Below are positions 11,617 through 64,000 of a stretch of 64,000 nt of DNA, piece by piece. The stretch is from Hysterangium stoloniferum (taxonomy: Eukaryota; Basidiomycota; Agaricomycetes; Hysterangiales; Hysterangiaceae). The notes beneath the pieces were generated by a model. It saw only the letters and a list, made by a program, of their open reading frames with translations, ran no database searches and was not told where the DNA came from. The translations under genes and the position numbers were made by a program. The DNA lies in contig WHVD01000265.1 in the NCBI GenBank assembly GCA_015178975.1, positions 20,861-84,860 of the forward strand, written 5' to 3'. Each line of letters opens with the position of its first letter. Position 1 is the first letter of the stretch.

Positions 11617-12345
11617 CCGTGTTAGGGTACATACATGGCAGGTTTCCAGAGAAACCCACAGGATATCTGGTAGGACTTGGCTTCAGCTTATAGGCTGCAC
11701 CCTCACAAGATCGTGTTGTCCAATTTCAGACAGGCGGACAGGAATTACAGGGAGTCTGGCAGGGTTCATGGGTTGAGGGGTCGTAGGCCAGAGGTCATGG
11801 GTCAAGAGGTCAGGAGTCGAGATAAATAAGAGAGATAGATGTGTCAGAGCCCGTGGGCTCTGACTAGCGTGAGTGGTGTAATTCAAGGAGGAGTTTAGAG
11901 TGGAAAATCTATTAGATTACTGGGGGGAATCTAAGCCGATTATCTGACTGGGATTGTATGTACAACATCTGTGTTACGACTGGACAATCCCGCTGGACTC
12001 CGGGCACTAACCCGTACGCCCCCACACGCTACAAGCACCAATCATCTGTTTATAGGATTTCCTGCCCGGACTCCGTTATGTCAAGCCTCGTTACATTCGA
12101 CCTCATTACGACACATATCAGTCACCGAACTTCCCCTGGACTCCATCTCTGTCTATGTCCGTCTTCGTCCCACGCATCAGTCACCGGTCCCCGCTTAGAA
12201 TCCCGTCACCGCTCTAATCGAGCCCCATTCCCATTTTAGTCAAATGACCTGTCACGATTTAGGACTCCGCTCCCGCTCCGTTTCCCGTTATGGGTTATGC
12301 TTTGTCACGATTCGGACTCCGCTCTGTTCCGTTCCGCTCTGTTCC

Positions 12346-12450
12346 GTTCTGTTCTGTTCTGTTCTGTTCTGTTCTGTTCTGTTCTGTTCTGTTCTGTTCT
12401 GTTCTGTTCTGTTCTGTTCTGTTCTGTTCTGTTCTGTTCTGTTCTGTTCT
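12346..12450 (+). repeat. Pentanucleotide microsatellite (GTTCT)21
   Basis: Twenty-one uninterrupted copies of GTTCT lie inside the 5' LTR. They are flanked by imperfect units (GTTCC, GCTCT) that appear unexpanded in the 3' LTR around 19730-19747. The array therefore arose by slippage in this LTR after, or during, insertion. It also creates a long Cys-Ser-Val-Leu-Phe open frame that is not a gene. Confidence 0.95.
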
Positions 12451-12552
12451 GTTCCGTTCCTAACACCAATTTGGTGTTTACTATTCCCGTTTTATGTTTT
12501 GTTAGTTTCGTTTCATTATTACTGGATTTGGTATGTCATGCATTCCACGGTC

Positions 12553-12596
12553 TATATAAACTGGCAGATGTTGTACATACAATCCAGTCAGAAAAT
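12553..12596 (+). promoter_or_regulatory. Element A core promoter and predicted RNA 5' end
   Basis: TATATAAA is at 12553-12560. About 33 bp downstream is AGTCAGAAAAT (12586-12596), which is complementary to the primer-binding site at 12932-12942. The spacing fits transcription starting at 12586, giving an RNA that can prime itself. The same arrangement is in the 3' LTR (19841-19848 and 19874-19884). The start site is inferred. Confidence 0.65.
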
Positions 12597-12849
12597 TAGC
12601 TTAGATTCCCCCCAGTAATCTAATAATATTTTCCGCTCTAAAACCTTACTCGATTCACATCGCTCGCACTAGTCGGAGCCCACGGGCTCCGGCACATCTG
12701 TCTCTCTCAACCAACTCGACTCACGACCCACGACCTCCGACTTACGACCCGCGACCCAACTTACGACCTACGACCCATGAACCCCACCCGGACTCCCCGG
12801 GATCCCCGTCCATCCGTTTGAAATTGGACAACACGATCTAGTGAGGGCA

Positions 12850-12863
12850 CAGCCTATAAGCTG
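12850..12863 (+). other. Conserved LTR hairpin near the U5 end
   Basis: CAGC-CTATAA-GCTG forms a 4 bp stem and 6 nt loop, embedded in GAGGGCRCAGC...GCTGAAGCCAAGTCC, about 70 bp before the LTR end. The same block occurs in the 3' LTR (20138-20151) and in LTRs of other families (see findings). Confidence 0.6.
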
Positions 12864-12931
12864 AAGCCAAGTCCTACCGGATATCCCACGGGTTTCTCCG
12901 GAGACCCGGCCTGTGTGTGTATCCTAACAGT

Positions 12932-12942
12932 ATTTTCTGACT
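12932..12942 (+). other. Putative self-priming primer-binding site
   Basis: ATTTTCTGACT begins two bases after the 5' LTR. It is not the usual TGG start of a tRNA-type site. It is the exact complement of 11 nt at the predicted transcript 5' end (12586-12596), as known for Tf1-type elements. Confidence 0.65.
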
Positions 12943-12965
12943 AATACTCGCAGATTGTTTTCATT

Positions 12966-14258
12966 ATGCCACCAAGAAGAAGTACACGCACACAGTCATC
13001 AATGCCTAAACCGTCGACTCTTCATTCCCCGTTAACTCTGTATACCAGTCAGACGCTTGCGAACCAGTCAGAACCCATGGAAGAAGCCCGTATCGAAGAA
13101 GTCCCGGAAAACCTGGACAAATCAGAGAACGAGTATGATTCCGTGTCCCCCGACAAGGGCAAAGGTGTCGAAATCCCTCTCAAAAACCCTCCGCCTCTTC
13201 AACGACCGCATTTGGGGGATCCTACTTCTGAATTTTTAGCAGGAACCATAGATAAATTCATGACTCACCTGCTCGAAGAACGAAAGAAAAAGGAACAAGA
13301 ACCTCCACGGTCAAAAGTCAATGCTCCAGAACCCTTCACGGGTTTCAACCCAAACAAACTCTCCACTTTCCTCATGCAATGTCGCTTCAACTTCCGTGAT
13401 CGTGCCGCTGCATTCTCCACGGACTCCCAAAAAGTCAATTACGCACTGTCATATTTGTTGGGATCCACGTTGAAATGGTTCGAACCGGCTTTTAGCGGGA
13501 TTTCCGAGGAAGAGCCGCTCTGGCTTGAAAATTGGGAGGCGTTTGTTGAGGAGCTTGAAACCAACTTTGGCCCATATGACCCGACAGGAGAAGCCGAGAA
13601 TAGTCTCACAAATCTTCGTATGAAGGACACGCAGCGCATCACGGACTACATCGTCCAATTCAATAATCTTGCAGCTCGTTGTCAGTGGGGCGATCCCGCT
13701 CTCCGCCACCAATTCTATGCCGGTCTGCCGTCCCGCCTTAAAGACGAAGTCTCAAAAGGAGAAGATGGCAAGCCAAAAACCCTGTCCCGTATGTGCCTCA
13801 AAGCTCAAAACGTGGACGCACGTTATTGGGAACGTCGCACCGAAGTTGCCTGCGAGATGTCCGCGGACAAAGTAAACAAGTCCAAGGACAAAAACAATAA
13901 CACCAATTCGTCAACCAGCAACCAGAACTCCACGCAATCTGACAAGAAGAACGATAAAAAGTCTTCAAACAACAACAACAACAATAAGGACAACAAGGAC
14001 AACAACAAGGGTCAACAGTCCGGCAAGCAAGCCGGAAAACCCGACCTCTCAGGCAAACTCGGACCCGATGGCAAATTGACTCCACAAGAAAGACAATGTC
14101 GTATGGACAACAACCTCTGTCTCTTGTGCAGGAAACCCGGTCATCGAGTCCCGGAATGTCTGCTGGCAAAAGCAAACTCTTCAAAGGGTCGATCAGCCAA
14201 AGCTTCCACGGAAACCCCGTCGAAGGACAAACCGGCTGCCAATTCGAAAAAAGAGTAA
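12966..14258 (+). CDS. gag: Element A gag polyprotein
   Basis: Uninterrupted 430-codon frame starting MPPRRSTRTQSS. Residues ~110-290 are the retrotransposon capsid domain, with FTGFNPNKLSTFLMQC, YALSYLLGSTLKWFEP, FGPYDPTGEAENSL and AARCQWGDPALRHQFYAGL. An Asn/Lys/Asp-rich low-complexity linker follows (~310-365). A CX2CX4HX4C zinc knuckle (CLLCRKPGHRVPEC) sits at ~385-398 and would bind the genomic RNA. Gag forms the cytoplasmic virus-like particle. The stop at 14256-14258 is followed by pol in the -1 frame, which overlaps the last ~160 nt of gag, so Gag-Pol probably depends on -1 frameshifting; no obvious slippery heptamer was verified. Confidence 0.93.
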   Translation: MPPRRSTRTQSSMPKPSTLHSPLTLYTSQTLANQSEPMEEARIEEVPENLDKSENEYDSVSPDKGKGVEIPLKNPPPLQRPHLGDPTSEFLAGTIDKFMTHLLEERKKKEQEPPRSKVNAPEPFTGFNPNKLSTFLMQCRFNFRDRAAAFSTDSQKVNYALSYLLGSTLKWFEPAFSGISEEEPLWLENWEAFVEELETNFGPYDPTGEAENSLTNLRMKDTQRITDYIVQFNNLAARCQWGDPALRHQFYAGLPSRLKDEVSKGEDGKPKTLSRMCLKAQNVDARYWERRTEVACEMSADKVNKSKDKNNNTNSSTSNQNSTQSDKKNDKKSSNNNNNNKDNKDNNKGQQSGKQAGKPDLSGKLGPDGKLTPQERQCRMDNNLCLLCRKPGHRVPECLLAKANSSKGRSAKASTETPSKDKPAANSKKE

Positions 14259-17200
14259 GCAACCCCGCGGACTCCGTGCGGGTTAGGGGTTGCGTTGCCT
14301 CTCCACACATTCAAGAGTTCACTCGCCTCAACGCATCCGCTCTTTCACATTTTGATTCATTTTTCGTTAAACTTATGTCTAATATGATCCCGAAATTCGT
14401 TTTTTCAGCTCTCATAGATTCCGGCTCGACTCATTGTTTTTTTAGATACAAAATTCACGCAAAAAAATTCTTTGTCAACTTATTCGATAAATCCCGTCAC
14501 ACTCCGCCTCTTCGATGGCACAAGTAATTTGGTTGTTACCCAAGCTTGTGATTTACCCATCAATTTCCCTTGTGGAACATCTCAATTGGTCACTTTCTAT
14601 GTGACCCAGTTAGACTCAAGTTGCTCGGTGGTCCTAGGACATAACTGGCTTACCCGCTACAATCCATTGATTGACTGGATAGCTAACAGTATAACATTCC
14701 AGACTCCCGCGGCGACCGAGGAAACTGCACCTGTCTCGGCCTCCACGGCACCCATGGCCTTCCTGGCACCTGCAGTCTCGAGGACTCCTGTGATCCCTAC
14801 GGCACCTATAGCTTCCCCGGAACCCACGGCACCTCCGTCCATTTCTCTGATTAATGCTGCAGCTTTTATTAGGGCTTCAAAAATGGATGGGTCCCAGGTG
14901 TTCACTATCAACTTAAAGATTGATGAAGCAACTGGATGTTTTTCAACCCCAGTATCTGAATCTGAGCAAGCCGCTGACCTAGAAGGCGTCCCGGAGAAAT
15001 ATCATGACTTCGCGGATGTTTTTAGCAAGCGGAAAGCTGACCGGCTTCCGCCTCATAGAGAATACGACTTAAAAATTGATCTTGAAGATGGCGCCCAGCC
15101 ACCCCTAGGACATATTTACCCACTTTCATCCACGGAACTATCCGCAATCCGTGATTTCCTGGATGAACATTTGTCCATAGGTTTTATTCAACCCTCAAAG
15201 TCTACTTTTGGAGCACCTGTTCTCTTTGTCAGAAAAAAGGATGGATCCCTTCGACTATGTGTTGATTTTAGAGGACTCAATGCTGTCACCAAGAAGGATA
15301 AATATCCACTCCCACTTATATCTGACCTCCTCGATGCTCCGCGGAATGCCCGGATTTACACCAAAATAGATCTCAAGCACGCCTATCATTTGGTCTGGAT
15401 TGCCGCAGGCGACGAATGGAAAACCACTTTTAGAACCCGTTATGGCGCCTTTGAGTGGTTGGTCATCCCTTTTGGACTCACCAATGCTCCGTCTGTTTTT
15501 CAGTGTTTTATCAACGACATTTTCTCTGACATGCTCGGTGTATGCGTCATTGTTTACTTGGATGACATTCTTATCTACTCCGAGAATCCCGCAGAACACG
15601 ACAAACAAGTCCGTGAGGTTCTCCGGAGGCTCAGACAACATGGTTTATTCGCAAATGGTAAAAAATGTACTTTTGACACGGACTCCGTGGAATACCTAGG
15701 TTTCATGATGGGACCCGATGGTCTCCGCATGGATGAAACTAAAGTACAAGTTATCAAAGATTGGCCCGAACCCCGAAAAGTTAAAGATATACAATCCTTC
15801 CTCGGCTTTGCCAATTTTTACAGACATTTTATCTGTGGATATTCCAACATCACGGTACCCCTCACCTGTCTTACATGTAAGGGTACTCCGTGGAATTTTA
15901 ATGATAAGTGTCAAAAAGCTTTCAATCTTTTAAAAAATTCTTTTTCTACAGCTCCTATTCTGTCGCATTGGAAACCGGACTTCCCGCTCATTGTTGAAAC
16001 GGACGCCTCCGACTATGCACTTGGAGCCATTCTCTCCATCCAGGACTCTGACGGAGAAGTCCATCCCGTGGCTTTTCTGTCCTGGACTTTTACCAGAGCA
16101 GAGCTCAACTACGACGTTCATGGTAAAGAACTTCTGGCAATCTTTTCAGCTTTCAAAGCGTGGCAACACTATTTGGAAGGTTCAGGAGCTCCTATTGACA
16201 TTGTAACAGATCACAAAAACCTGGAATACTTTTCTACCACAAAACTCTTGACCCGCCGGCAGGCCTGCTGGTCTGAATATCTCTCTGCCTTCAACATGAT
16301 TATCCGTTTTCGACCCGGCCGTCTTGGCGGCAAACCCGACGCTTTAACTAGACGATGGGACGTCTATCCTAAAGAGGGGAGCAATGACTATGCAACGGTA
16401 AATCCGCACAACCTGAAACCTATTTTCACGAATCAACAACTTACCGCATCAGTCCGCGCAACTTTCCTCGTCAATCCCATTGTCCGTGGAATTATCATTA
16501 TGGATATCGAGAAGTTACATCAAGATATTCTATCGGTGATTCCGCTAGACCCAGTTACTAAAGCTCATCTGGACAATCCTGTGGACCCCGATAAACCTCG
16601 GTGGTCTCTTGATCAACATGGTTTCATTAGACTTGACGATCGTATCTATGTACCAGACTCCGACGGCCTCCGCCTCAGGATCCTTCAATACAAACATGAT
16701 CATCCACTCTCAGGACATTTCGGGTACAACAAAACTCTATCATTAATAAGAAGAGCATACACTTGGCCCGGACTCTGTGGATTCATTAAGCACTATTGTA
16801 AATCTTGTACTACTTGTCCCCGCTCGAAATCTCAGCGACACAAGCCATACGGCCTTTTGAAACAACTCCTGGTACCGGAACACCCGTGGAATTCTATCTC
16901 TATGGATTTCATTGAACACCTACCGGATTCCAAAGGCTTTTCTGCTATTCTAGTCATTGTTGACAGATTCTCAAAACAAGGTATCTTCATCCCTACTTAT
17001 GATACAATTACGTCCGTGCAGTTAGCGGAACTTTTCATTATCCACGTATTTTCCAAGCACGGAGTTCCGTCCCACGTGACTTCTGATAGAGGATCAGAGT
17101 TCGTGTCTCACTTCTTTAGATCCCTCGGAAAATCCTTGGACATGACACTACATTTCATGTCCGGACATCATCCGGAAGGTGACGGACAAACCGAATGCGT

Positions 17201-17983
17201 CAACCAGACATTGGAACAATACCTCCGCATATATTGCAATTATCAACAGGACAATTGGAAGACCTTGTTACCACTTGCAGAGTTTGCTTACAACAATGCA
17301 CCTTCAGCCACTACTGGCATTTCCCCATTCTTTGCAAATAAAGGATATAATCCAAATATTACAGTACATCCAGAACGAAATCTCACCTCTGCTCGTGCTC
17401 AAGAGTTCACCACGGATCTCCACGAGCTCCACAAGGAACTCCAGACTGCAATATTGTCCGCGCAAGAGCAATACCAACATTCAGCGGACAAACACCGGAT
17501 CCCGCCACCCAACTTCAAGATTGGCGACCGTGTTTATGTCAAAGCTCAATTCTTCAGGACTACCCGTCCATCAAAGAAGCTTGCTGAAAAATATTTAGGC
17601 CCATTTGAAATTATTGCACAAGTAGGTTCAGTTTCTTGGACTCTACGGCTTCTGGATAGCATGCGCGCGGTACACCCGGTATTTCATGTTTCTATGCTTG
17701 AACCTTGTACTGCTAACACTATCCCAGATCGCGTGCAATCTCCGCCTCCTCCTGTCGCATCGACGGAGAACCCGAGTTTGAAATCTCACAGATTTTAGAT
17801 TCAAAAATAGACAAGCATCGACGCACTTGTAAACTGCTTTACTTGGTCAAGTTAGCGGGTTACGAGGGCACCGATGAAGAGACCTCATGGATTTTGGCCA
17901 TGGAACTCAGTAATGCCACGGAAATCATTACTGACTTTCATACAGCTTACCCACTCAAACCTGGACCATTATCGTCTCTCTGA
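14259..17983 (+). pseudogene. pol: Element A pol: protease-RT-RNase H-integrase-chromodomain, two frameshifts
   Basis: Order: aspartic protease (ALIDSGSTHC near 14412), reverse transcriptase (YLDDILIYS near 15555), RNase H (ETDASDYALGAILS, HGKELLAIFSAFKAW, VTDHKNLEYFS), integrase with an HHCC zinc domain (HPLSGHFG...CKSCTTC) and a DDE core (SMDFIEHL, VTSDRGSEF, HPEGDGQTE), then a chromodomain. A single-base length change in a T run at ~14440 moves the frame right after the protease active site. A second shift at ~17757 throws the chromodomain (stop at 17981-17983) out of frame with integrase. The chromodomain aromatic residue that is Trp in element B (LYLVKWAGY) is Leu here (TTA, 17852-17854). 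Several conserved arginines are Cys or Trp. The copy is inactive; the long central frame runs 14472-17798. Confidence 0.92.
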
Positions 17984-18194
17984 CCGCACTCCACAGACCC
18001 CGTGTTACGTTTGGACTCATTTTCATTATTCCCTGTCGCCCTATGTCTCTCTTTGCTTTTACAGGTTCTGACATGTCTTGTCAAGTCTTTAAGCGGATTC
18101 CCCGTGGACTTTGGCTTTGACTTTTAATTTTTATGTTTTTTCTTTCACGCTTTGCTTTTATGATTCAAATTATTTTTTAATTCTATACTACTTT

Positions 18195-19177
18195 TCAGTC
18201 TACATTTATGGGACTGTGTTTTTTCCCCGCCTCCTCAGCTACCTCTCCAGGAAGCTCCGTGATCTCCGCGGCAACCCCCTCCTCATCCGACCCGGCATCC
18301 TTGGAACTCCCGATCTGTGGCTCTTCATAGACATAGCCGCCATACTCCGCCAGGAACTTCCAAAACTCCTCACGGAGTCCGGACAGCTCCTTTGCCACCA
18401 CAATTTGGACTTTGTTGCTCTTCCGGAGCAACTCATTTTGGGCCTTGATGCCCTCGGCGATCCGTCCAAGGACCTCGTCCAAACCGGACAACCCGTCCGT
18501 CCCACTTATGTCTCGCATCCCGGACCCCGTGGCCTGCTTATGCACAAACGAGCACCTCGCCTTGAGGTGCATGCATTGGTAACATCCCAGACCCCGGCCG
18601 GACTTTCTGTTGCATTCCGTGTTCCAGTTGTTGCAACCGGAACACCGCAGCTTGTTCCGCGTCGGAAGACGGACTGGCGCCGCCTTCCTTGCCTTCTGTT
18701 GATATGGTCAGTTTCCGTGGGTATCCCACGGATATGAGGCCTACCTTTTGGGGGCTCTCTGGCTCCCCCTCGGACTCGGACTCCACCTCTGTCACTTTGC
18801 GCTGAAAATAACAAGTCAGTAAAGTTCGACAAGTGAGATTTGGAACTTACCTTTCCCACAACAATGGCGGCCCTCTCCGCGGCCAACCGGGTGTTCTCTG
18901 CAGCCACCCGGGCATTCTCCGCGGCCACTCGCGCAGCCTCCTCCGCCTCACGCTCCCTCTCCTTCGCGGCCTCTTCCTCCGCGGCCAACGCTTCCTGGTA
19001 CTCTCTGTCCAGGGCCTCCTCGGCCTCCCTAGCCTCTCTCTCTGCTGCTTCACGAAGCTGGCACTGCTCTTCTCGCCGCACCAACAATTGGGCCGCACTC
19101 CAAGGTGCCCGATACGGAGAACCCATGGAGGGCCCTGATGTAGGCATTGGTTTTCGTGGTGTTGGTTTTGGTCCCAT
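18195..19177 (-). CDS. Antisense spliced Zn(II)2Cys6-type accessory gene of element A
   Basis: The gene lies between pol and the 3' LTR on the strand opposite gag-pol. Exons are 19177-18851, 18801-18745 and 18695-18195; introns are 49 nt each with GTAAGT..TTTTCAG and GTAGGC..CAACAG. Spliced length is 294 residues with no stop. Residues ~35-105 are Ala/Glu/Arg-rich and predicted coiled coil. Exon 2 is acidic (EVESESEGEPESPQ). Exon 3 opens with a basic stretch, then cysteines at 146, 149, 156, 166, 169 and 176, spaced CX2CX6CX9CX2CX6C, the fungal Zn2Cys6 DNA-binding pattern. A leucine-rich amphipathic region and an acidic tail follow. No fungal-specific transcription-factor domain is present. 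A TATA box lies 54-60 bp upstream. Element B carries the same gene with the same architecture. Function unknown; DNA or chromatin binding is inferred. Confidence 0.85.
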
Positions 19178-19230
19178 AGTGACGAAGATGGGGGTAATGA
19201 AGAAGAAGAAATTTCTATTTTTTCAAAAAT

Positions 19231-19287
19231 TTATATAGGCTCATTGCGTTTGAACCTTACCTTCCAGATCACATGACTCTTTGACAC
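19231..19287 (-). promoter_or_regulatory. Promoter of the antisense gene, element A
   Basis: On the minus strand TATATAA occupies 19237-19231, about 54-60 bp before the ATG at 19177. Further upstream (19287-19265) is GTGTCAAAGAGTCATGTGA. A close match, GTGTCAAACATCATGTGA, sits upstream of the TATA box of the element B gene. The shared block suggests a conserved regulatory site. Confidence 0.6.
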
Positions 19288-19374
19288 ATACGTGTAACCG
19301 ACATGACTTTTGACACATGCGCATAGCCGACAAGAACCTTATCCAGGTCTAGAGCCTCTTTGGGACTTCGGCAT

Positions 19375-19387
19375 AAAGGGAGGATAC
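19375..19387 (+). other. Polypurine tract of element A
   Basis: AAAGGGAGGATAC directly abuts the 3' LTR. Its counterpart in element B is nearly identical (AAAAGGGGAGATAC on the minus strand). This is the plus-strand DNA primer site. Confidence 0.8.
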
Positions 19388-20217
19388 TGTTACGACCGGA
19401 CAATCCCCCCGGACTCCGGGCACTAACCCGTACGCGCTACAAGCACCAATCGTCTGTTTATAGGATTTCCCACCCGGACTCCGTTACGTCAAGCCTCGTT
19501 ACGTTCGACCTCATTACGACACATATCAGTCACCGGACTTCCCCCGGACTCCGTCTCTGTCTATGTCCATCTTCATCCCACGCATCAGTCACCGGTCCCC
19601 ACTTAGAATCCCATCACCGCTCTAATCGAGCCCCGTTCCCGTTTTAGTCAAATGACCTGTCACGATTTAGGACTCCGCTCCCACTCCGTTTCCCGTTATG
19701 GGTTATGCTTTGTCACGATTCGGACTCCGCTCCATTCCATTCCGTTCCTAACACCAATTTGGTATTTACTATTCCCGTTTTATGTTTTGTTAGTTTCGTT
19801 TCGTTATTACTGGATTTGGTATGTCATGCATTCCACAGTCTATATAAACTGGCAGATGTTGTACATACAATCCAGTCAGAAAATTAGCTTAGATTCCCCC
19901 CAGTAATCTAATAATATTTTCCGCTCTAAAACCTTACTCGATTCACATCGCTCGCACTAGTCGGAGCCCACGGGCTCCGGCGCATCTGTCTCTCTCAACC
20001 AACTCAACTCACGACCCACGACCTCCGACTTACAACCCATGACCTGACTTACGACCTATGACCCACGAACCCTGCCCGGACTCCCCGGGATCCCTGTCTG
20101 TCCGTTTGAAATTGGACAACATGATCTAGTGAGGGCGCAGCCTATAAGCTGAAGCCAAGTCCTACCAGATATCCCGCGGGTTTCTCCGGAGACCCGGCCT
20201 GTGTGTGTATCCTAACA
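19388..20217 (+). repeat. 3' LTR of element A (830 bp)
   Basis: Starts TGTTACGACCGG and ends ATCCTAACA, followed by the ATCTG target duplication. Apart from the missing GTTCT expansion and a few small indels it is close to the 5' LTR. Confidence 0.93.
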
Positions 20218-21120
20218 ATCTGCCAGACTATATAGACCATGGAATTAATGACATACCAAATCCAGTAATGATGAAATGAAACTAGCAAAACATGAAACGA
20301 GAATAGTAAACACTAAATTTGGTGTTAGGAATGGGACGGAATAGAGTGGAGTCTGAATCGTGACAGGTCATTTGACTAAAACGGGAATGGGGCTCTGTTA
20401 GAGGGATGACAGGTTTTCTGAGCGGGGTCCGGTGACTGATGCGTGGGACAGAGTCGGACATAGACAGGGACGGAGTCCAGTGGGTATTCTGGTGACTGAT
20501 ACATGATGTAACAAAGTCGAACATGGACAAGTCTGATGTATGGAGTCCAGGGGGAATTCCAGTAAACTGACAATTGGTGCGTCTAGGGCATGGGTGCGTA
20601 TAAGTTAGTGCCCAGAGTCCGGCGGGAATTCCGGTTGTAACAAACTGGCCCACCATCCCTGCTCTTCCCCACCCTACATTTGACCCTCTTGCCCATACCA
20701 ACCAGCTACATACACATCCTGCTGCCCCCACCTACCATTAGGGTACTTTTCTCCCAACTGCTATGTATCTTAGTTATGCGACACAGTATATAAATGTATT
20801 AAATAAAAAAATAAAAAGCATGATCACATGACATGTTGAAAAATATAAACAAGTGCAAACAATCAACATTGTCATATGATTTTCATGCAAAAGCCTGTCA
20901 GTGACAAAAGGTATCCAATGACCCCTCTTTATTAAAATATTTATTTGTTACCATATATGGATATTACATAATGTCTTTATGGTACCTTGGACTATGCATG
21001 ATAGAGCATGTTGGCAAATACTTTGGTGATTTGTATGATTTTGTCTACTGGGGTATAAGCTATACAAGTTGAAACTGCAAAACATTGGATACATTTTGTA
21101 AGTCACTGTAGAATTGGACC

Positions 21121-43211: not shown

Positions 43212-46200
43212 GTGGGTTATGATCTCACCAACCCGAGGATCCCCACACCAAGCACAGCATCAAGGCCCACAGAGAAACCAATAAAGATAACCCACCGATC
43301 TAGTGCCAGCAAGCCAGCATATGAGCCACCACTAGCTGGATATCTGGTACCAGCCCCCATCATGGCAGCTGTACGAGAACATATTGAGATCCTTGCTTGC
43401 CAGGACACATTGGCAAGAAAAGAGGTGGAATTCAAACAGACCTTTGCCAACCGTTTCCCAGTAAGATTACCCAATACTGTGGACATCCCCACACATATCT
43501 ACCACCGCATATGCCTAAAGGACACCTCCAAGGTTATAACTGGGTGAGGATATTCAGCCCTGAAGAAATTCCATGACACCTGGAAACTCTTACTTGAGGA
43601 ACATCTAGCAGCAGGATGCATTCAACCATCCTCCTCAGAATATGCCTCCCCAGCCTTTTGTGTTCCAAAATACCGCAATGGGGTCCCAACCTTGGACATT
43701 CCACCATGTTGGGTAAATGACTACCAAGAACTGAACCAGAACACCATTCATGACAAGTACCCCCTCCCTCGGGTGGACAACATTCTTTCAGACTGTGGTT
43801 GAGAGATAATCATTGGGAAGCTGGACATGACCAACTCCTTCTTCCAGACCAGGGTACACTCAGATGATATACATCTCACAGCAGTGTGCACCCCTTGGGG
43901 GCTCTATGAGTGGACAGTAATGCCTATGGGAGGTTGCAATGCACCATCCACACATCAGAGATGTATGACTGATGTGTATCTAGACGACATTATCATATGG
44001 TCACAAACCCTAGAAGAACATGAACAAAATGTAGCAATGGTATTACAGGCACTCTGGGCAGCCAAGCTGTACTGTAACCCAGATAAGTCTACCCTCTTTG
44101 CAACTGAAATATCCTTCCTTGGCCACCACCTTTCAGGTGCAGAGATCCACCCAGACACTTGCAAAATGGAGCATATTATCAACTGGCCCCAGCCCACTAC
44201 TGCCACCAACGTCAGGGGATTTCTGGGACTTACACAATATATTCCAGCATTCCTCCCAGCATTAGCAGAACACACTAGCATACTTACCCCACTCACCACC
44301 AAGGAGTGTGATCGCCAATTCCCTGCATGGACATCAGCACACCAAAGCACCTTTGAGGCCATCAAACAGTTAGTTACGGGAGTAGACTGCCTCACAGTCA
44401 TCAACTATGAGGACCCAAACAAGAAGATCTTCCTAACCAGGCACACTGGGGCTGTCCTCAGTTCTGGCAACAATTGGGCGATGGCATGACCCATTGCTTA
44501 TGACTCCTACCAGCTCAACCATGCTGAGAAGAACTACCCAGTACATGAAAAGGAATTATTAGCCATAATCAAGGCACTCAAGAAGTGGCGCACTGTTAAG
44601 TACCGTGTCGGAAACTTATTCCAGAACTATTGGAAAGTCACCAGGAATTTGGAAACTATCAGATAGGGTCAGGACATCGGCTTCAGCTTATATGCTGTGC
44701 CTCTATGCAAACACTTGGGAGTCCTTAATTTCAAAGGCAGGACTTATGCTGGAAGATATGGATATTCACAGTTCCAAAGAGTTCTGAATATTGAGTGTAC
44801 AGAAAGATGGAAGAGGGAATAAGAAACTAAGTCGATATCAGATCTAAAGTAAAGTACAAATTCGCAGAAATTAATATAAGTCTTCTCGTTATTGTATTAC
44901 AAAATAAGACCACAATAAGACGGAAATGGAAAGTATTCTGAAATGGGAATACAATAAGATGAATTGGGGAGACATTATTCCAAAACGGGAATATAATAAA
45001 CAAATGAGTGAATACTTGTCAATGGACAAATTACCAAATGCGGAACAAGGGAAGATTATGGAAGACATGGTAACTATGATGTTCTGTAGTTGGAAGTCAG
45101 AAGTTGGATATTGAAACATCTGGGAATGGGTTGTAACATGCACCAGCTTCTTAGGCTGCCATTTCAAGATCTACACTGACCACTGCACACTAGAATACTT
45201 CCAGTCCCAAAAGGAGATGTCCTGCCGACAGATGTGATGGTCTATGTACCTCGCCGACTTCGACTTTGACATAATTTATATCTGAGGTGAGGACAACTTG
45301 GTTGCAGATGCATTATCATGCATGCCCAAAAATGACCCAGATGCCATGCAAGCTGCCTGTGCATTGGCCTATACACGTTCACCAACAAGGAAGCTTGCAG
45401 GGGGTACCCTCAGCATCAAAACTGACCCCTTACTCCTGGAAATGATCCAACAGGGGTATCTCAGTGATGATTTTTGCAAACAGCTGGACCAGGATATAAC
45501 TGCAGGAAGCATTGAAGGGGCACACAGGGATGCAGGTCTCTTATATGTTGGGGGCAGACTAGTTATTCCCTGAGACATCACCATAAGGGAAACACTTTAC
45601 CACCTCGCCCATGACACTCTAGGCCACTTTGGGTTCGACAAAAGCTATGAGTCCCTTTGTCACTCCTACTACTGGCCAAACATGTGACGAGATTTATAAT
45701 CCACATACATACCTTCATGTACAGAATGCCAGTGGAACAAGGACCACACCAGACAGCTGAGTGGCCCCCTACATCCTCTTCCAGTGCCAGACAACCATTT
45801 CGATACAGTCGCCATCGATTTTGTGGGTCCCTGAGGTGAATGGGAAGGATATGGTCCTGATGATGATGGACACCTTGGGAGCCGACATCCGACTTGCCGA
45901 CATCCACTCCTCCTACACTGCCACACAAGTCGCTGTGGTCCTCTTTAATGAATGGTACTGCGAAAATGGCTTGATGCTCCATATTGTCTCTGATCACAAC
46001 CCCCTCTTCACATCTGAACTCTGGAACACCTTACACAAACTATCTGGGGTAAAATTAAAGATGTCCACTGCCTACCACCCCCAAAGTGATGGGCCCAGTG
46101 AATGGACCAACAAGACATTGAATCAAGTGATCCACTATCATGTCAATATAAATCAAAAGGGATGGACAGCACAGCTACCCCATGTACAGTTTGCCCTCAT

Positions 46201-46896
46201 GAACACGGTCAATACCTCCACAGGCTTCTCTCCCTTCCAACTAAAGACTGGCCACTCCCCCTGCATTATCCCCCCCTCACACCCTTAAGTGACAATGCCA
46301 CCCCTGCCGAGATATTGGGATATGAAGTCATGCACCGTTTAGAGCTCAATGTCCAGGAGGCACAAGACAGCCTCACAGCTGCCAAGGTCCGACAGGCCTA
46401 CCATGCTAATGAACATCGTGCAGCAGAAATACCATACCAGGTTGGGGATCTCGTCATGTTATCTACTACACACCACCACCATAACTACAAATGTAAAGGG
46501 AAGAGACGTGCTACCAAGTTCATGCCCTGCTTTGACGGCCTGTACCAAGTCACAGAGGCCTTCCCAGAAAAGTCCATGTACACGCTACATCTTCCCAACA
46601 ACCCTACCACATACCCAGGGTTCCACTCCAGTCTCCTCAATCCATTCATCCCAAATGACCCCTCCCTCTTCCCCAACCAAGAGCTCATCCACCCAGGAAT
46701 GGTTGTTATGGAGGATGGCTCTGAAGAGACACTGATTGACAAAATTGTCAATGCGCACTGCCGTGGCCAGGGGATCCAATACCTCGTACGATGGGTGGGT
46801 TTTGGAAAGGATCACAACAAGTGGCTACCCCACAAAGCCCTTGAAGAAACAGAGGCCTTGGACATCTGGGAGAATGACAATGGGTTAGATATTTAA
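43212..46896 (+). pseudogene. Element C pol remnant: RT, RNase H, integrase, chromodomain
   Basis: RT motifs include KLDMTNSFFQTRVH, PWGLYEWTVMPMGGCNAPST and VYLDDIIIWS. Residues normally lying between the last two motifs are missing, a small deletion ending just before YLDD. RNase H is split by the solo LTR at 44594-45138 and resumes with FKIYTDHCTLEYFQ. Stops include TGA at 45235-45237 and 45283-45285 where arginine is expected. Integrase has VSDHNPLFTSELW and YHPQSDGPSEWTNKT. The terminal chromodomain (QYLVRWVGFGKDHNKWLP) is intact, with its aromatic residues, and the stop is 46894-46896. Not functional. Confidence 0.88.
44594..45138 (-). repeat. Solo LTR family D (545 bp) inside element C RNase H
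   Basis: It is the reverse complement of the family D LTR at 21792, with ends TGTTAAGTACC and GGGTTGTAACA. Flanks are CGCAC (44589-44593) and TGCAC (45139-45143), a target duplication with one C-to-T change at a CpG. The conserved hairpin is at 44684-44697. The insertion post-dates element C. Confidence 0.9.
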
Positions 46897-47312: not shown

Positions 47313-48294
47313 GGCTGATCTGTTTGAAGCAAATTGATCAATCACCGGTTGGTGGCAAAGCTGCGATGTACTAAGCAAATGCTTGATCTTATCAGATGAT
47401 TGTTTGGCCAGCCCATATCAATGGCTACAAAATTGAGCTCCATATAGATGCGCTGGGGAGTTTCATGAATGGGAAGGGGGCAAATGGCAGCGACAAACGA
47501 TGACAGGTGTCCTTATAAACCCACTCCAACGTGGGAATGTTACATTAGGTGACATTAGGTGACAGCACCCACATGCTTTGTAATACATATTCGCGTCGTT
47601 TGTCGTGTTTGTTTCGTCACAGCGTCAAATAAAGTTCATTTTCATCGTCAAAAAGTTATCAAGTTAATTATCAAGCTTTATTATATGAATAAAAAATTGT
47701 ATATTCTACATAGTTGTTGTTTAGCCAAGCTTGTCTAATAAAATATCCTTTCTCAGATAAGCTAGAGCCTCGAAGCTTTCATATCATTCAAAGCTTCAAT
47801 TATAAGAAAACATTATCAATGCACTAAAAATACGGACCATGACCATTATGCATCCAATGGTATTCAACCTGCACCCCTGTCACATCCACAAGTTGTGATA
47901 TATATGTACCTTCACATTGCAATCACATTTAATACTTGTATTGCATTGGCATCATTTGCCAGGACTTGCATCATTGTTAGCCTGAGAATGGTATGAACTG
48001 GCATGGTCACACTCATAAGTGTATATTTACTTCACCATGCAATGTGTTTTACTCTCAGTGAGTGATAAACCTTTACTATAACATCTATTGTTATCTACCT
48101 AAATAATACTGAATTAATAGTAAGTAAACTATTAATGTAGAACTAGGGAAAATTGCATACCTCTCAGTGAGTGATAAACCTTCACTGAGAGGCTATGTGA
48201 TCGGTCTCTATGCTCCATAAGCGTAATGTAACTATACAGTTACCCTACACTGTGTTCCAGCTTACCAAAGGTAGCTTACATAATGCTAATATTT
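47313..48294. other. Intergenic with a repeated 26-bp block and a hairpin
   Basis: No gene is seen. CTCTCAGTGAGTGATAAACC occurs at ~48053 and again at 48161. At the second site CCTCTCAGTGA (48160-48170) and TCACTGAGAGG (48182-48192) form a perfect 11 bp inverted repeat around an 11 nt loop. Confidence 0.6.
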
Positions 48295-49876
48295 GTTACG
48301 GCCATGTCACAGCCGTTTGGCCCTGAGGTTATCGCCACCTATCGACGATTCAAGTTATCGCTCAAGTCACCACATCAGAAACCATTGCCCCTGATGCTGA
48401 CGTATGCTTTCGCAGTGATCAAACTCTGTTTACACCCACATCAAAATATACTCGTACTATCTGGTTAAACTTTTGATGCGTCCCTTTTATTATGATGATC
48501 TGTTCTATCCTATGTTTCACATATGCCTATATATACTTGTAACCCTCGAACTATTTCCTTTTCCCGTAATTACGCTCTTGGTTATCTCTTCGGCCTCCGA
48601 ACTAATCATAAACTTCCCATTCCTAGTCAAGCTTATTGTCAATACCCTGTTCCGCTCTTCTCCTAGTTAGTATTTTCTAGACGCCTGATACTTGTATATG
48701 AACCCGCTGTAGTTATAGTTACTAGGCAATCTGTTAGGATACACACACAGGCCAGGTTTCCGGAGAAACCCGTGGGATATCCGGTAGGACTTGGCTTCAG
48801 CTTATAGGCTGCGCCCTCGCTAGATTGTGTTGTCCAATTTCAAACGGACAGATGGGGATCCTGGGGAGTCTGGGCGGGGTTCATGGGTCGTAGGTCGTAA
48901 GTCGGGGGTCATGGGTCGTAAGTCGGAGGTTGTGGGTTGTGAGTCGAGATAGTTGAGAGAGATAGATGCGCCGGAGCCCGTGGGCTCTGACTAGTGTGAG
49001 TGATGTGAATCAAGTAAGGTTTTAGAGCGGAAAATGTTATTAGATTACTGGGGGGAATCTAAGCTAATTTTCTGACTGGATTGTATGTACAACATCTGCC
49101 AGTTTATATAGACCATGGAGTGAATGACATACCAAATCCAGTAATAACGAAATGAAACTAACAAAACATAAAATGGGAATAGTAAACACCAAATTGGTGT
49201 TAGGAATGGGACGGAACGGAGCGGAGTCTGAATCGTGACAAAGCATAACCCATAACGGGAAACGGAGCGGGAGTGCAGTCCTAAATAGTGACAGGTCATT
49301 TGACTAAAATGGGAATGGGGCTCAATTAGAGCGGTGATGGGATTCTGAGCGGGGTCCAGTGACTGATGCGTGGGACAAAGACAGACATAGACAGAGACGG
49401 AGTCCGGGGGAAGTCCGGTGACTGATATGTGTCGTAATGAGGTTGAATGTAACTAGTCTTGACATAATGGAGTCCGGGTGGGAAATCCTATAAACAGACG
49501 ATTGGTGCTTGTAGCACGTGGGGGAGTACGGGTTAGTGCCCAGAGTCCGGTGGGATTGTCTGGTCATAACACAATCAGAATATCGACTCAGAATACCCTC
49601 TTACGCCTCTGGCAGTCTTGTACTAAGAATCCCCTCATCCGCCTTCGTGTGCGCTCATCCACTCTCAGTCACTGACCCTTGGCCTGACACTCGACTTAAC
49701 CTTTGGTCCCGATCAGTATCTCGCCAAAAGGAACTCATTAGGATTAGTCTTTGCCCGCCTGAAATTTAAGGACACTCAATGGACATTTGCGAGGGTGCAG
49801 CACATAAGCTGAAGCCAAGTCCTTCTGATCGGTCCCTGTCGGCCAACTGACATCAGTCAGTTTTCAGTTCTTAACA
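48295..49876 (+). repeat. Solo LTR family B, split by a family A solo LTR
   Basis: Starts TGTTACGGCCATGTCACAG and ends CAGTTCTTAACA, with a perfect target duplication ATATT (48290-48294 and 49877-49881). Pieces 48295-48731 and 49577-49876 sum to 737 bp, close to the 719 bp LTR of element B. Its hairpin copy is at 49798-49811. Confidence 0.92.
48732..49571 (-). repeat. Solo LTR family A, 840 bp, target duplication CAATC
   Basis: Reverse complement of the element A LTR: TGTTAGGATACACACACAGG at one end and GTCTGGTCATAACA at the other. CAATC is duplicated at 48727-48731 and 49572-49576. It lacks the GTTCT expansion. The hairpin is at 48798-48811. Confidence 0.93.
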
Positions 49877-49881
49877 ATATT

Positions 49882-59654: not shown

Positions 59655-60373
59655 TGTTAAGAACTGGAAACTGACTAATGTCGGTGGCCGACAGGGACCG
59701 ATCGGAAGGACTTGGCTTCAGCTTATGGGCTGCGCCCTCGCAAATATCCGTAGGATGTCCTTAAATTTCGGGCGGGCGAAGACTAGTCCTAGTGAGTACC
59801 TTTCGGCGTGATACCGATCGGAATCGAAGGACAAGTCGGGCGTCGGGCCAAGGGGTCGGGCCGGGAGTGGGCGAGCGCACGTGAAGGCGGATGGGGGAAG
59901 TCTTAGTATGAGACTGATACAGGTGTATGAGGGTATTCTGAGTCGATATTCTGATTGCCTAGTAACTACAATTACAGCGGGTTCATATACAAGTAACAGG
60001 CGTCTGGAAAATACTAATGGGGAGAAGGGCGGAACACGGTATTAACAATAAGCTTGACTAGGAATGGGAAGTTTATGATTAGTTCGGAGGCCGATGATAA
60101 CCGAGAGCGGGATTACGATAAAAGGAAATGGTTCGAGGACTACAAATATAGATAGACATATGCGAAACATAAGATTGAACGGATCAACATAATAAAGGGG
60201 ACGTATCAAAGTTTGACCAGACAATACGAGTTATTTGACGTGGGCGTAAATGGAGTTTGATCTTCGCGAAACATTCGTCAGCTTCGGGGCCGATGGTTTC
60301 CGAGAGGATGACTTGAAACGTTGACAAGTGGCGATAACCTCGGGGCTGATAGGGTTGCGACACGGTCGTAACA
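59655..60373 (-). repeat. 3' LTR of element B (719 bp)
   Basis: On the minus strand it starts TGTTACGACCGTGTCGC and ends AGTTTCCAGTTCTTAACA. A solo copy with target duplication at 48295 confirms both ends. Hairpin copy at 59719-59732. Confidence 0.92.
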
Positions 60374-60387
60374 GTATCTCCCCTTTT
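60374..60387 (-). other. Polypurine tract of element B
   Basis: Minus strand AAAAGGGGAGATAC directly next to the LTR, matching element A in position and sequence. Confidence 0.75.
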
Positions 60388-60455
60388 GGCCGAAATCCCA
60401 AGGAGGCCGAAAATCTAGATCCCGTACGTAAAAAACTTGTCGGGTACGGCTGGGT

Positions 60456-60497
60456 GTGTCAAACATCATGTGACTCGGCAAAAGTTTGCATATAAAA
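60456..60497 (+). promoter_or_regulatory. Promoter of the antisense gene, element B
   Basis: TATAAAA at 60491-60497 lies 57 bp before the ATG at 60548. GTGTCAAACATCATGTGA at 60456-60473 matches the upstream block of the element A gene. Confidence 0.6.
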
Positions 60498-60547
60498 GTT
60501 TGAGAGTTCCTGGCGCTTGAAATTCCACTTCCCTTCCTTTAACCACC

Positions 60548-61529
60548 ATGACCATAGGCTCGGGGTCAAAGCCCTTCCCGGTTAGGTTAACAGTTGCGCC
60601 CATGTCGGCGCCGAGTGGTACGGCGAACGCGAAGGAGCGTCGGCGTATACTCGAGCAGAAGAAAAAGGCGCGTGAAGAGGAGGAGCGGAAAGAGAAGGAG
60701 GAGTTGGCGGCCATCGAGGCCGAGGAAAAGAAACAGGCGGCAGAAGAGGCCGCGTGCAAGCACTGGGAAGCAGTGCTTGCAAAGAACAAGCAGCAGGAGG
60801 CCGATCGGGCACGGGAGGAGGCGGCGAAAAAGAAGCGGGAGGGAAAAGTGAGTCGGCTCTGGTGTCTTTTGCGAACCTTACTGACAATATCTGTTAGCGC
60901 AAGGCTGCAACGCCTTCGGAGTCCGATGACGAAGAGGGAGAGGAGGACGAGGAGGATGCACCGGGGCCGTCGAGCCCCAAGGTGGGTTCGGTTTCCTAAA
61001 AAAACTTCCTAAATAATTTTTTTTTTTTCTATAGAAACAAAAGCAGGCCCCCAAGGCGGGGCCCGAAAATGACCCCAAGTGCAATCGGTGCACGAAACGG
61101 GGTCGAACCTGTCATCCCCGGACCAATGGTCGGGGCCGCACTTGTCAAGAGTGCGCTGATCAGAAGCTTGGGTGTGTTTTCCCGGGGGCCGATGGCTCAT
61201 TCCAGGAGCGACAGGCCAATGCTCTAGAAGAGCAAAACCGCCTCATGCGGACCTACTTCTCGGAGACGAGCCGGTACCGATATGAGATGTTGCGACAACA
61301 AGGGCTCATAACTGAGCAATTGCGACTCTTGGGCGTCGGGCTGGAGAAACAGACCAGCGTTATCGAGTCTCTTGGTGGTCAACTTGAGCAGTATTTGGAA
61401 GTCTCGAGTTGCGGTGGGCATGAAATTGGGGTTTCGGAGAAGGTCGGTGGTGTGGTATCGGTGGCTGTCGGTGCGGAGGAGGGTTCGGAGGTCGGAGAGG
61501 AGGGAGAAGTTGTAGAGGGAGAAACTTAG
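60548..61529 (+). CDS. Antisense spliced Zn(II)2Cys6-type accessory gene of element B
   Basis: Exons 60548-60847, 60898-60981 and 61035-61529; introns 50 and 53 nt (GTGAGT..TGTTAG, GTGGGT..CTATAG). The spliced product is 292 residues, against 294 in element A, and both introns sit at the same places: after a Gly-Lys closing the coiled coil and after Ser-Pro-Lys/Gln-Lys closing the acidic exon. Residues ~28-98 are Lys/Glu/Ala-rich coiled coil. Exon 2 is acidic (SESDDEEGEEDEEDAPG). Cysteines at 144, 147, 154, 165, 168 and 175 are spaced CX2CX6CX10CX2CX6C. A helical, Gln/Leu-rich region and an acidic tail follow. No stop or frameshift is present, although pol of the same element is broken. The start could also be the ATG at 60602. 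Role unknown; a DNA- or chromatin-binding regulator is plausible. Confidence 0.87.
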
Positions 61530-61628: not shown

Positions 61629-64000
61629 TTATAAGGAATTGAGAGGACCGGGTTTGTTCGGATAAGCTTGGTGAAACCCTAAAACGATTTCCGAGGCATT
61701 ACCGAGCTCTGTAGCTAGGATCCATGAAGTTTCTTCATCTGTACCTTCATAGCCAGCCCATTTGACCAAATAAAGTAATTTGCATGAGCGTCGGCGATTG
61801 TCGATTTTTGAGTCTAGGATTTCTGATATCTCGAATTCGGGTTCCCCATCAATAATCACGGGTGGAGGTGGTGGTTGTATGCGATCTGGTATATTGTTAG
61901 GAACACAAGGTTCTAACATAGATACATGAAATACCGGGTGCACTGCACACATGTTGTCGGGGAGCCGAAGCGTCCATGAAAGCGTGCCGGCTTGTGCTAT
62001 AACTTCAAAAGGACCTAAATATTTTTCAGAGAGCTTCTTAGAAGGTCTAGTAGTTCGGAAAAACTCGGCTTTAACGAATACTCGGTCTCCGATCTTGAAA
62101 TCAGGAGGTGGAAGGCGGTTTTTATCCGCAGACCGTTGGTATCGTTCTTGAGCCATTGCGATAGTTTTACGAAGTTCTTGATGTAGCTCGTCGAGGTTTG
62201 TAACAAAGTCTTGAGCACGGGCGGATGCGAGATCGCGTTCCGGGTGGATTGCGATGTTGGGGTTGTAGCCTTTATTTGCGAAGAAAGGCGAAATGCCAGT
62301 AGTGGCATTCGGTGCGTTGTTGTATGCGAATTCGGCCAGCGGTAGTAGTGATTTCCAATTGTCTTGTTGATAGTTGCAATAGACACGGATGTATTGCTCC
62401 AAGGTTTGATTCATGCGTTCGGTTTGTCCATCGCCTTCCGGGTGATAGCCCGAAGTGAAATGTAACTTCATGTCTAGTGCTTTTCCGAGTGACCTAAAGA
62501 AGTGAGAGACAAACTCGGATCCGTGATCGGATGTGACATGCGACGGAACGCCATGCTTGGAAAATACATGGGTAACGAATAATTCAGCTAACTGTACAGA
62601 TGTTATCGTGTCATATGTTGGAATGAAAATACTTTGCTTTGAGAGCCGATCCACAACAACTAGGATTGCTGTGTGACCTTCGGATGCCGGTAGGTGCTCG
62701 ATAAAATCCATAGAAATCGAGTTCCAGGGTTTTTCCGGTATCGGTAATTGTTTGAGTAGGCCATATGGTTTGTGTCACTGTGATTTAGAGCGTAAACACG
62801 TAGTACAGGATTTACAATAGTGCTTAACAAAATCTCGGATGCCGGGCCATGTATATTCTCTTCTAATGAGTGAGAGGGTCTTATTGAGGCCGAAATGTCC
62901 TGAGATTGGGTGGTCGTGCTTATGTTGTAGGATTCGCAGCCGAAGGGTGTCGGAATCCGGTACATAAATGCGATTGTCAAGTCGAATGAAACCTTGTGAG
63001 TCTAATGACCATCGGGGCTGATCGGGGTCGGACGGGTTATCGAGGTGTGCTTTGGTGACTGGGTCTAATGGAATTGCCGATAGTATATCTTGATGTAACT
63101 TTTCAGTATCCATGAGGATAACACTTCGCAAGACTGGATGAATGAGGTAAGTGGCTCGGATAGATGCGGACAGTTGTTCCGATGAAAACATAGGTTTGAA
63201 ATTATGCGGATTAACTGTGGCATAGTCGCTACTCCCCTCTTTAGGATAGACGTCCCATCGTCTAGTCATAGCGTCGGGTTTTCCACCAAGGCAGCCGGGA
63301 CGGAAGCGAATTACCATGTTGAAAGCGGAGAGGTATTCGGACCATCGAGCTTGTCGACGGGTGAGAAGTTTTGTGGTTGAAAAGTAAACTAAATTTTTGT
63401 GGTCTGTAATAACATCTACCGGGTGGGCCGAGCCCTCCAAATAATGTCGCCATGTCTTGAAAGCTTCAAATATTGCGAGTAATTCCTTATCGTGAACGTC
63501 GTAGTTGAGTTCGGGCGCCGAAAATGTGCGAGACAGAAAAGCTACTGGGTGTACTTCACCATCGGTGTCCAGAATGGACAATATCGCGGCAAGCGCATAG
63601 TCCGAAGCATCAGTTTCCACGATAAGTTGAACGTCGGGTTTCCAGTGCGACAAAATAGGGGCGGATGTAAACGCACTTTTCAATTCCTGGAATGCCGATC
63701 GGCATTCTTCGGAGAAATTCCACAGGGTGTCTTTGCGAGTAAGACGAGTGAGCGGAACGGTAATTTTTGAGTAATTGTGAATGAAACGGCGATAAAAATT
63801 GGCGAAGCCTAAAAAGGATTGAATATCTTTAACCTTTCGGGGTTCCGGCCAATCTTGAATGACTTGAATTTTAGCGTCGTCCATGCGGAGACCATCGGGT
63901 CCCATCATGAAGCCTAAGTATTCAACCGTGTCGACATCAAAAGAACATTTTTTACCATTCGCAAAAGAGACCATGTTTTCGGAGTCTTCGGAGGACTTCA
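61629..64000 (-). pseudogene. pol: Element B pol (RT end, RNase H, integrase, chromodomain)
   Basis: From the right edge the frame reads the RT thumb (VEYLGFMMGPDGLRMDD), RNase H (ETDASDYALAAILS, VHDKELLAIFEAFKTW, ITDHKNLVYFS), and the integrase zinc domain (HPISGHFGLNKTLSLIRREY, HYCKSCTTC). It then hits TGA at 62777-62775, where element A has Arg (SKSQRHKPYG). Integrase resumes at 62711 with SMDFIEHLPASEGHTAIL, VTSDHGSEFVSHFF and YHPEGDGQTERMNQT, then the chromodomain (LYLVKWAGYEGTDEETSWIL) and a stop at 61629-61631. Near 63966 a run of four T where three fit the frame also breaks the link to the upstream RT frame. The N-terminal part is outside the window. Two defects make this copy non-autonomous. 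Confidence 0.9.

Follow-up and report, generated by a model that had tools for sequence, protein, structure and literature searches.

A Ty3/Gypsy element in the genome of the truffle-like fungus Hysterangium stoloniferum (Agaricomycetes, Hysterangiales) raises the question of whether an open reading frame on the strand opposite gag-pol is a gene of the element, and what its product might do. This element, A, lies in a stretch of 64,000 nucleotides that was analysed as a whole (the window) and that also holds a second Gypsy element, B. Element A comprises the following parts.

11972..20217, plus strand: Ty3/Gypsy chromovirus element A, from the LTR alignment, with Retrotrans_gag, RVT_1, RNase H and integrase matches
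11972..12929, plus strand: 5' LTR, aligning with the 3' LTR in two segments of 91.8% and 95.6% identity
12945..14258, plus strand: gag open frame, stop to stop, Retrotrans_gag match at E 2.9e-12
14418..17798, plus strand: pol open frame with RT, RNase H and integrase, broken before the chromodomain
19388..20217, plus strand: 3' LTR, from the LTR alignment

The order of RT, RNase H and integrase, the C-terminal chromodomain, the LTRs and the duplicated 5-bp target site ATCTG (11967-11971, 20218-20222) identify A as a chromovirus. The chromodomain of A is a remnant in another frame, read by eye at 17761-17983 (end at about 17983), and the Chromo profile scored in the pol of B only (25.3 vs 25.1 bits). 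Since pol is frame-broken before the chromodomain, the window copy is not autonomous, and together with LTRs that are 92-96% identical this marks it as old. The 5' LTR also carries a run of the pentanucleotide TTCTG (12340-12451) that is missing in the 3' LTR.

The antisense gene of A is located between pol and the purine tract preceding the 3' LTR (19388). Its minus-strand exons (19177..18851, 18801..18745 and 18695..18195) encode 294 codons and a stop, separated by introns of 49 and 49 nt with the ends GTAAGT...TTTTCAG and GTAGGC...CAACAG. The initial annotation had described a three-exon gene of this length opposite gag-pol, and the structure was reconstructed exactly from the sequence. The features of the gene are listed in the direction of reading.

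19178..19387, minus strand: promoter and 5' leader, between the ATG and the 3' LTR, with TATATAAA at 19230-19237
18851..19177, minus strand: exon 1, codons 1-109, rich in Ala, Glu and Arg, probably helical from composition only
18802..18850, minus strand: intron 1, 49 nt, splice signals GT..AG present in 68 of the 70 distinct copies
18745..18801, minus strand: exon 2, codons 110-128, an acidic stretch flanked on both sides by basic clusters
18696..18744, minus strand: intron 2, 49 nt, splice signals GT..AG present in 67 of the 70 distinct copies
18195..18695, minus strand: exon 3, codons 129-294 and stop, with the six-cysteine domain, a helical region and an acidic tail
18552..18644, minus strand: six-cysteine domain CX2CX6CX9CX2CX6C, codons 146-176

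Evidence that the frame is a gene comes mainly from its copies. Of 1970 candidates in the genome search, the best 133 were scored, and these yielded 205 matches; at least 77 copies of the antisense gene were extracted, of which 70 are distinct, and about 30 of these 70 belong by eye to one young family, which makes the counts non-independent. Across the distinct copies, GT..AG was lost at intron 1 in L014 and L060 only and at intron 2 in L016, L054 and L076 only, with intron lengths of 47-64 nt. The only missing intron (in L014) is part of a larger deletion. Precise intron loss was found in none of the 70 A copies and 11 family-B genes, which is expected if the copies derive from unspliced sense RNA. 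The frame is open over at least 285 codons in 26 of the 70 copies; elsewhere the first stop falls most often at codon 34 (9 copies) or codon 39 (7 copies). Old copies (L039-L078) seem to decay chiefly at CpG sites, and their first stops often lie early in exon 1.

Selection acts on the encoded protein. Values of dN/dS in 45 pairs, drawn from 10 of the 26 intact copies, range from 0.13 to 0.42, so that a check for purifying selection suggested beforehand had a positive outcome. At non-CpG sites, 39 copies differ from the reference by.106,.057 and.286 at codon positions 1, 2 and 3, by.25 and.27 in the intron interiors and by.007 at splice sites; these are 39 of 43 copies, because the upstream part of L013, L055, L057 and L074 was unalignable. 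Four cysteines are kept in 70/70 copies and two in 69/70, every copy retains at least five of the six including decayed ones, and exon 3 has a mean identity of 79%. Exon 2 has the highest mean identity to the window copy of the three exons. The gene also travels with pol. The pol search scored 41 of 7835 candidates; of these 41 places, C10, C32 and C81 are at a contig end and C535, C82, C513 and C70 were left out, and in the 34 judged places exon 3 is whole or nearly so beside pol in 31 and a remnant in three (C2, C268 and C520). The reading frame is antisense to gag-pol, located between pol and the 3' LTR and conserved in most copies, as in the described class of such genes. Among database gene models of Hysterangium stoloniferum, P0003 is spliced at both predicted introns and P0002 at intron 1.

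A chance open frame or an artefact of a single copy could be suspected from the low complexity of exon 1 and from the GC-rich composition of the region, which is open on the other strand too. All conservation results speak against this explanation, which is refuted as far as protein coding is concerned and has a negligible probability. Protein-database searches gave no relatives outside Hysterangium stoloniferum among the matches listed (2, 2 and 1, with the best 7,999 and 7,990 candidates scored in the first two and 30 candidates in the third), and in the two larger searches (7,999 and 7,990 scored) helical words may crowd out other candidates. One scan of viral contigs likewise found no relative.

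The gene recurs in a second Gypsy family, represented in the window by element B.

61629..63965, minus strand: pol of element B, 80% identical to that of A over 697 aa, with chromodomain
60548..61529, plus strand: antisense gene of B, exons 60548-60847, 60898-60981 and 61035-61529, 292 codons, CX2CX6CX10CX2CX6C

Both introns of the B gene are at the same place as in A, and the two proteins share 27-31% identity with all six cysteines in common. The family-B genome search scored the best 134 of 1005 candidates and reported 222 matches, and 10 further B copies have GT..AG at both introns in 10/10. Recurrence in other elements had been anticipated, and the homologous gene in the same position in family B bears this out. 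Comparison of copies and families thus supports a protein-coding gene under purifying selection that is shared by two Gypsy families. The conserved introns imply a nuclear antisense mRNA. We infer that the antisense gene is transcribed and that the host splices it, with coding sequence and splice sites supported through conservation. The earlier proposal of a nuclear gene stands on these conserved introns and on the purifying selection on the protein.

Upstream of the gene, conservation is even stronger. A TATA-type box lies about 55-60 nt upstream of the ATG in 18 copies inspected, with variant letters in a few, and in the B gene TATAAAA precedes the ATG by about 57 nt. The block from -190 to -62 has 47/4082 mismatches (1.2%) at non-CpG sites of 39 copies, compared with about 26% in the introns, and splice sites alone are lower in the mismatch table (0.7%). 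The promoters of A and B align with a score of 147, and the best of 300 shuffles reached 112.5. The conserved box and the near-invariant upstream block across 39 copies agree with the claim that the gene has its own TATA promoter. In the block between the purine tract and the antisense TATA (19178-19387; B 60373-60547), TGTGTCAAA and CATGTGA recur by eye.

A promoter block that is more conserved than the coding part would also be compatible with the antisense transcript itself being what matters, with double-stranded RNA limiting the element and the protein secondary. Antisense transcription is discussed as a silencing route for such reading frames in the available parts of PMC7264820. The codon-position pattern, dN/dS and conserved cysteines nevertheless require selection on the protein, and we consider an RNA-based role very unlikely.

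We suggest instead, with a probability of about one half, that the antisense product would be a nuclear, helical and zinc-cluster-like regulator of the element's own transcription. The antisense transcript would start from a TATA promoter of its own, immediately internal to the purine tract, and would be spliced by the host, and the gene would be inherited with the element because sense genomic RNA holds the introns unspliced. The product is most likely nuclear, helical and probably dimeric, with a zinc-cluster-like six-cysteine domain. It might act in trans on element DNA, perhaps on the LTR or its own promoter, and the effect could be a tuning of sense transcription or of copy number. The basic clusters around exon 2 are a possible nuclear signal.

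The identity of the cysteine domain is critical for this proposal. Zn(II)2Cys6 binuclear clusters have six cysteines spaced as CX2CX6CX5-12CX2CX6-9C and usually have basic residues between cysteines 2 and 3. The spacing in the family A antisense protein is CX2CX6CX9CX2CX6C. When all six frames of the 64-kb window were scanned for the general pattern, two matches emerged, the antisense gene of A and its sister at 61080, and 60 shuffles (base pairs in blocks of two) gave none. The six cysteines described initially are present in the stated spacing and kept in copies. Family membership is less clear. Exon 3 matches Zn_clus (PF00172) more often than any other Pfam profile, in 16/27 proteins at E up to 10 with scores of 7.0-20.8 bits, and 11/27 have no match. 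All 27 exon-3 proteins, scanned singly, are below the gathering score of 21 bits, and the best match is the decayed copy L058 (20.8 bits, E 4.1e-4). A Pfam scan of the spliced A and B proteins gave no Zn_clus match, nor did B exon 3 alone, and the profile check proposed for the spliced protein came out negative. The listed matches cover half-domains: profile positions 16-32 are matched by the first cysteine half, and positions 2-16 by the second half in L058, L060 and L063, as though the order had been swapped. The residues between cysteines 2 and 3 are NNWNTE in the window copy of family A and NDRNTE in L005 and intact relatives, apparently without the usual basic run; in B they are TKRGRT. 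Among weak PDB profile matches, 3/8 are Zn2Cys6 regulators (LEU3 at E 1; Pho7 types at E 2.6 and 4.3). In the AlphaFold model of B, residues 55-124, which follow the cysteines, are confidently predicted as a long helix; at the cysteines themselves confidence is low in the A and B models, with block means of 41-58. Foldseek with the low-confidence B model returned 0 matches. For the proposed zinc-cluster identity, the spacing fits, and the scores below cut-off in 27/27 exon-3 proteins and the swapped halves do not. The protein plan appears zinc-cluster-like, with membership in the family not established.

Compared with Zn(II)2Cys6 regulators (PF00172; Leu3, Pho7), the Hysterangium protein is alike in its six cysteines in permitted spacing and in its weak profile matches, and differs in being below the Pfam cut-off in 27/27 cases, in its swapped halves and in being antisense and borne by a retroelement. 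The swapped half-domain matches weaken the interpretation as a regulator and slightly raise two of its competitors. One competitor is an accessory factor of another kind, which would help the integration complex into the nucleus, serve in chromatin tethering or act as a nucleic-acid chaperone; its six cysteines would then make up another zinc fold. The apparent lack of a basic run in family A, the sub-threshold and swapped Zn_clus matches, the long helix predicted in B and the basic clusters flanking exon 2 would suit such a factor. It is at odds with a cysteine spacing within the Zn2Cys6 range and with a chromodomain already present in pol, and a separate promoter, by which the protein would not be made with Gag-Pol, probably suits a nuclear regulator better. 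Such an accessory role is possible but rather doubtful.

An indication that the product might have some specificity comes from divergent alleles. L066, L068, L076 and L078 differ from the window copy by 2-5% in pol and by 2-4% in the compared LTR parts, and by 18-35% in the antisense exons and introns. The edges of this divergent island are sharp, near 18100 and 19230, and dS between L001 and L078 is 0.85. In the gene tree, the four copies (type 2) are united in a single clade (100/100) that stands farthest from the rest, whereas in the pol tree they interleave with the others (2.3% between and about 2.5% within). The pol sequences reject type 2 as one clade at an AU p of 0.0054, a generous value since the group was named after the trees were seen. 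L066 pairs with L016 in pol, and this pairing is rejected by the gene (p 6e-72). The conflicting trees support a scenario in which old alleles have been swapped between copies by recombination.

Without any allele exchange, the divergence island could also have arisen if the transcribed unit mutates faster or if other regions change more slowly. The island edges coincide with the probable transcription unit, and even in recent copies (L009, L010, L015 and L016) introns are two- to fourfold above the LTRs. Copies with old LTRs (L012, L014, L058 and L060) show only weak contrast, with.10-.21 in LTRs and.16-.29 in introns. Of three family-B copies compared in both LTR and gene, two have the contrast, with.43-.53 in introns and.06-.16 in the LTR, and the remaining one, C537, is without it (introns.07, LTR.05-.08). 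A rate effect does not account for the conflict between the gene and pol trees, and as a full explanation it is unlikely. The strong cases would be best explained by old alleles exchanged between modern elements, and a raised rate within the gene may contribute to the divergence as well. Exchange of old alleles suggests that the product carries some specificity.

Constraint within the protein differs among regions. In three type 1 versus type 2 pairs, dN/dS is.17,.13 and.06 in the basic and cysteine region and.38,.37 and.39 in the C-terminal helix. The acidic exon and the N-terminus (.07-.15) are constrained like the cysteines in these pairs. For the decayed window copy against L005 the pattern is reversed: the cysteine region has.95, the helix.07. 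A tentative and rather unlikely extension is that the antisense gene is a determinant of self-recognition or exclusion, with alleles shuffled by template switching among elements that are nearly alike in their other parts and held by balancing selection, each restraining its own kind, and a cysteine domain that may be a zinc cluster with swapped halves. The promoter and the cysteine domain would then be conserved, and diverging helices would set partner specificity, as can be likened to phage immunity regions and plasmid incompatibility.

For a regulator of element transcription, the LTR is a candidate target, and the LTR of A is rich in CGG-N3-CCG palindromes.

19410..19729, no strand: four CGGACTCCG palindromes (CGG-N3-CCG) at 19410, 19475, 19545 and 19721, candidate sites and a lead only

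The motif CGGANTCCG, picked post hoc after a k-mer screen, occurs 12 times in the window compared with 0.38 expected, with six occurrences within the two LTRs of A, and the LTR of B has none of this form. In four old LTRs the core shows 0/63 mismatches compared with 277/1856 elsewhere, a zero also reached by 133/4121 random quadruples and 5/230 rigid shifts. Core conservation showed no difference in recent copies (5/112 vs 166/4076) or in swapped copies (2/48 vs 42/1696). Conservation of the palindromes is only nominally unusual, and binding to the LTR is a candidate lead. Because very different alleles occur in elements with nearly the same LTR, co-evolution with the LTR fails to explain the divergence of the alleles.

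Antisense accessory genes of Gypsy elements are a known kind, which qualifies the initial statement that no described equivalent was known; the introns, the cysteine domain and the allele exchange appear new. Zhao et al. (2011) reportedly dealt with brtn of Boty-like elements. This antisense gene of Boty-like Gypsy elements in Botrytis cinerea accompanies a Gag-Pol with chromodomain, according to the portions available of PMC7264820, PMC4227169 and PMC8365987, and as described in these citing papers it resembles the Hysterangium gene as an antisense gene in a fungal chromodomain-bearing Gypsy element. Gypsy antisense accessory genes are described without known function in the sections seen of PMC7264820 and PMC11963269, and the described reading frames are like the Hysterangium gene in position, orientation and presence in most copies. 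The same sections report that Grande gene23 has a nuclear product and an upstream promoter of its own (PMC7264820), and that Retand reading frames encode TRP28, which is predicted to bind DNA (PMC11963269). By word search, "intron" is absent from the available texts of PMC7264820 and PMC11963269 and "zinc" from that of the Retand paper, with the likeness resting on description. According to the accessible part of PMC11963269, the retroviral gene HBZ of HTLV-1 is likewise antisense, lies close to the 3' end and has a nuclear product. HTLV has its antisense promoter within the 3' LTR according to the corresponding part of PMC7264820, whereas the Hysterangium TATA is in the internal region. A literature search, by the titles and first lines listed, gave no fungal retroelement whose antisense gene is spliced or has a cysteine cluster, and novelty on this basis is unproven.

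A single genome combines strong evidence of selection, a candidate domain, a near-invariant promoter and natural allele swaps. The swaps make the function of such antisense genes directly testable, by asking which alleles act on which LTRs, and whether element copies restrain each other becomes testable too. The window holds further Gypsy remains. A third, distant Gypsy pol at 43428-46896 is 29% and 27% identical in two pieces and has a chromodomain-like end by eye, and the six-frame scan of the window found no six-cysteine pattern near it. At 48294-49877, a B-type LTR is split by an apparent A-type solo LTR (about 48732-49571 on the minus strand, by eye).
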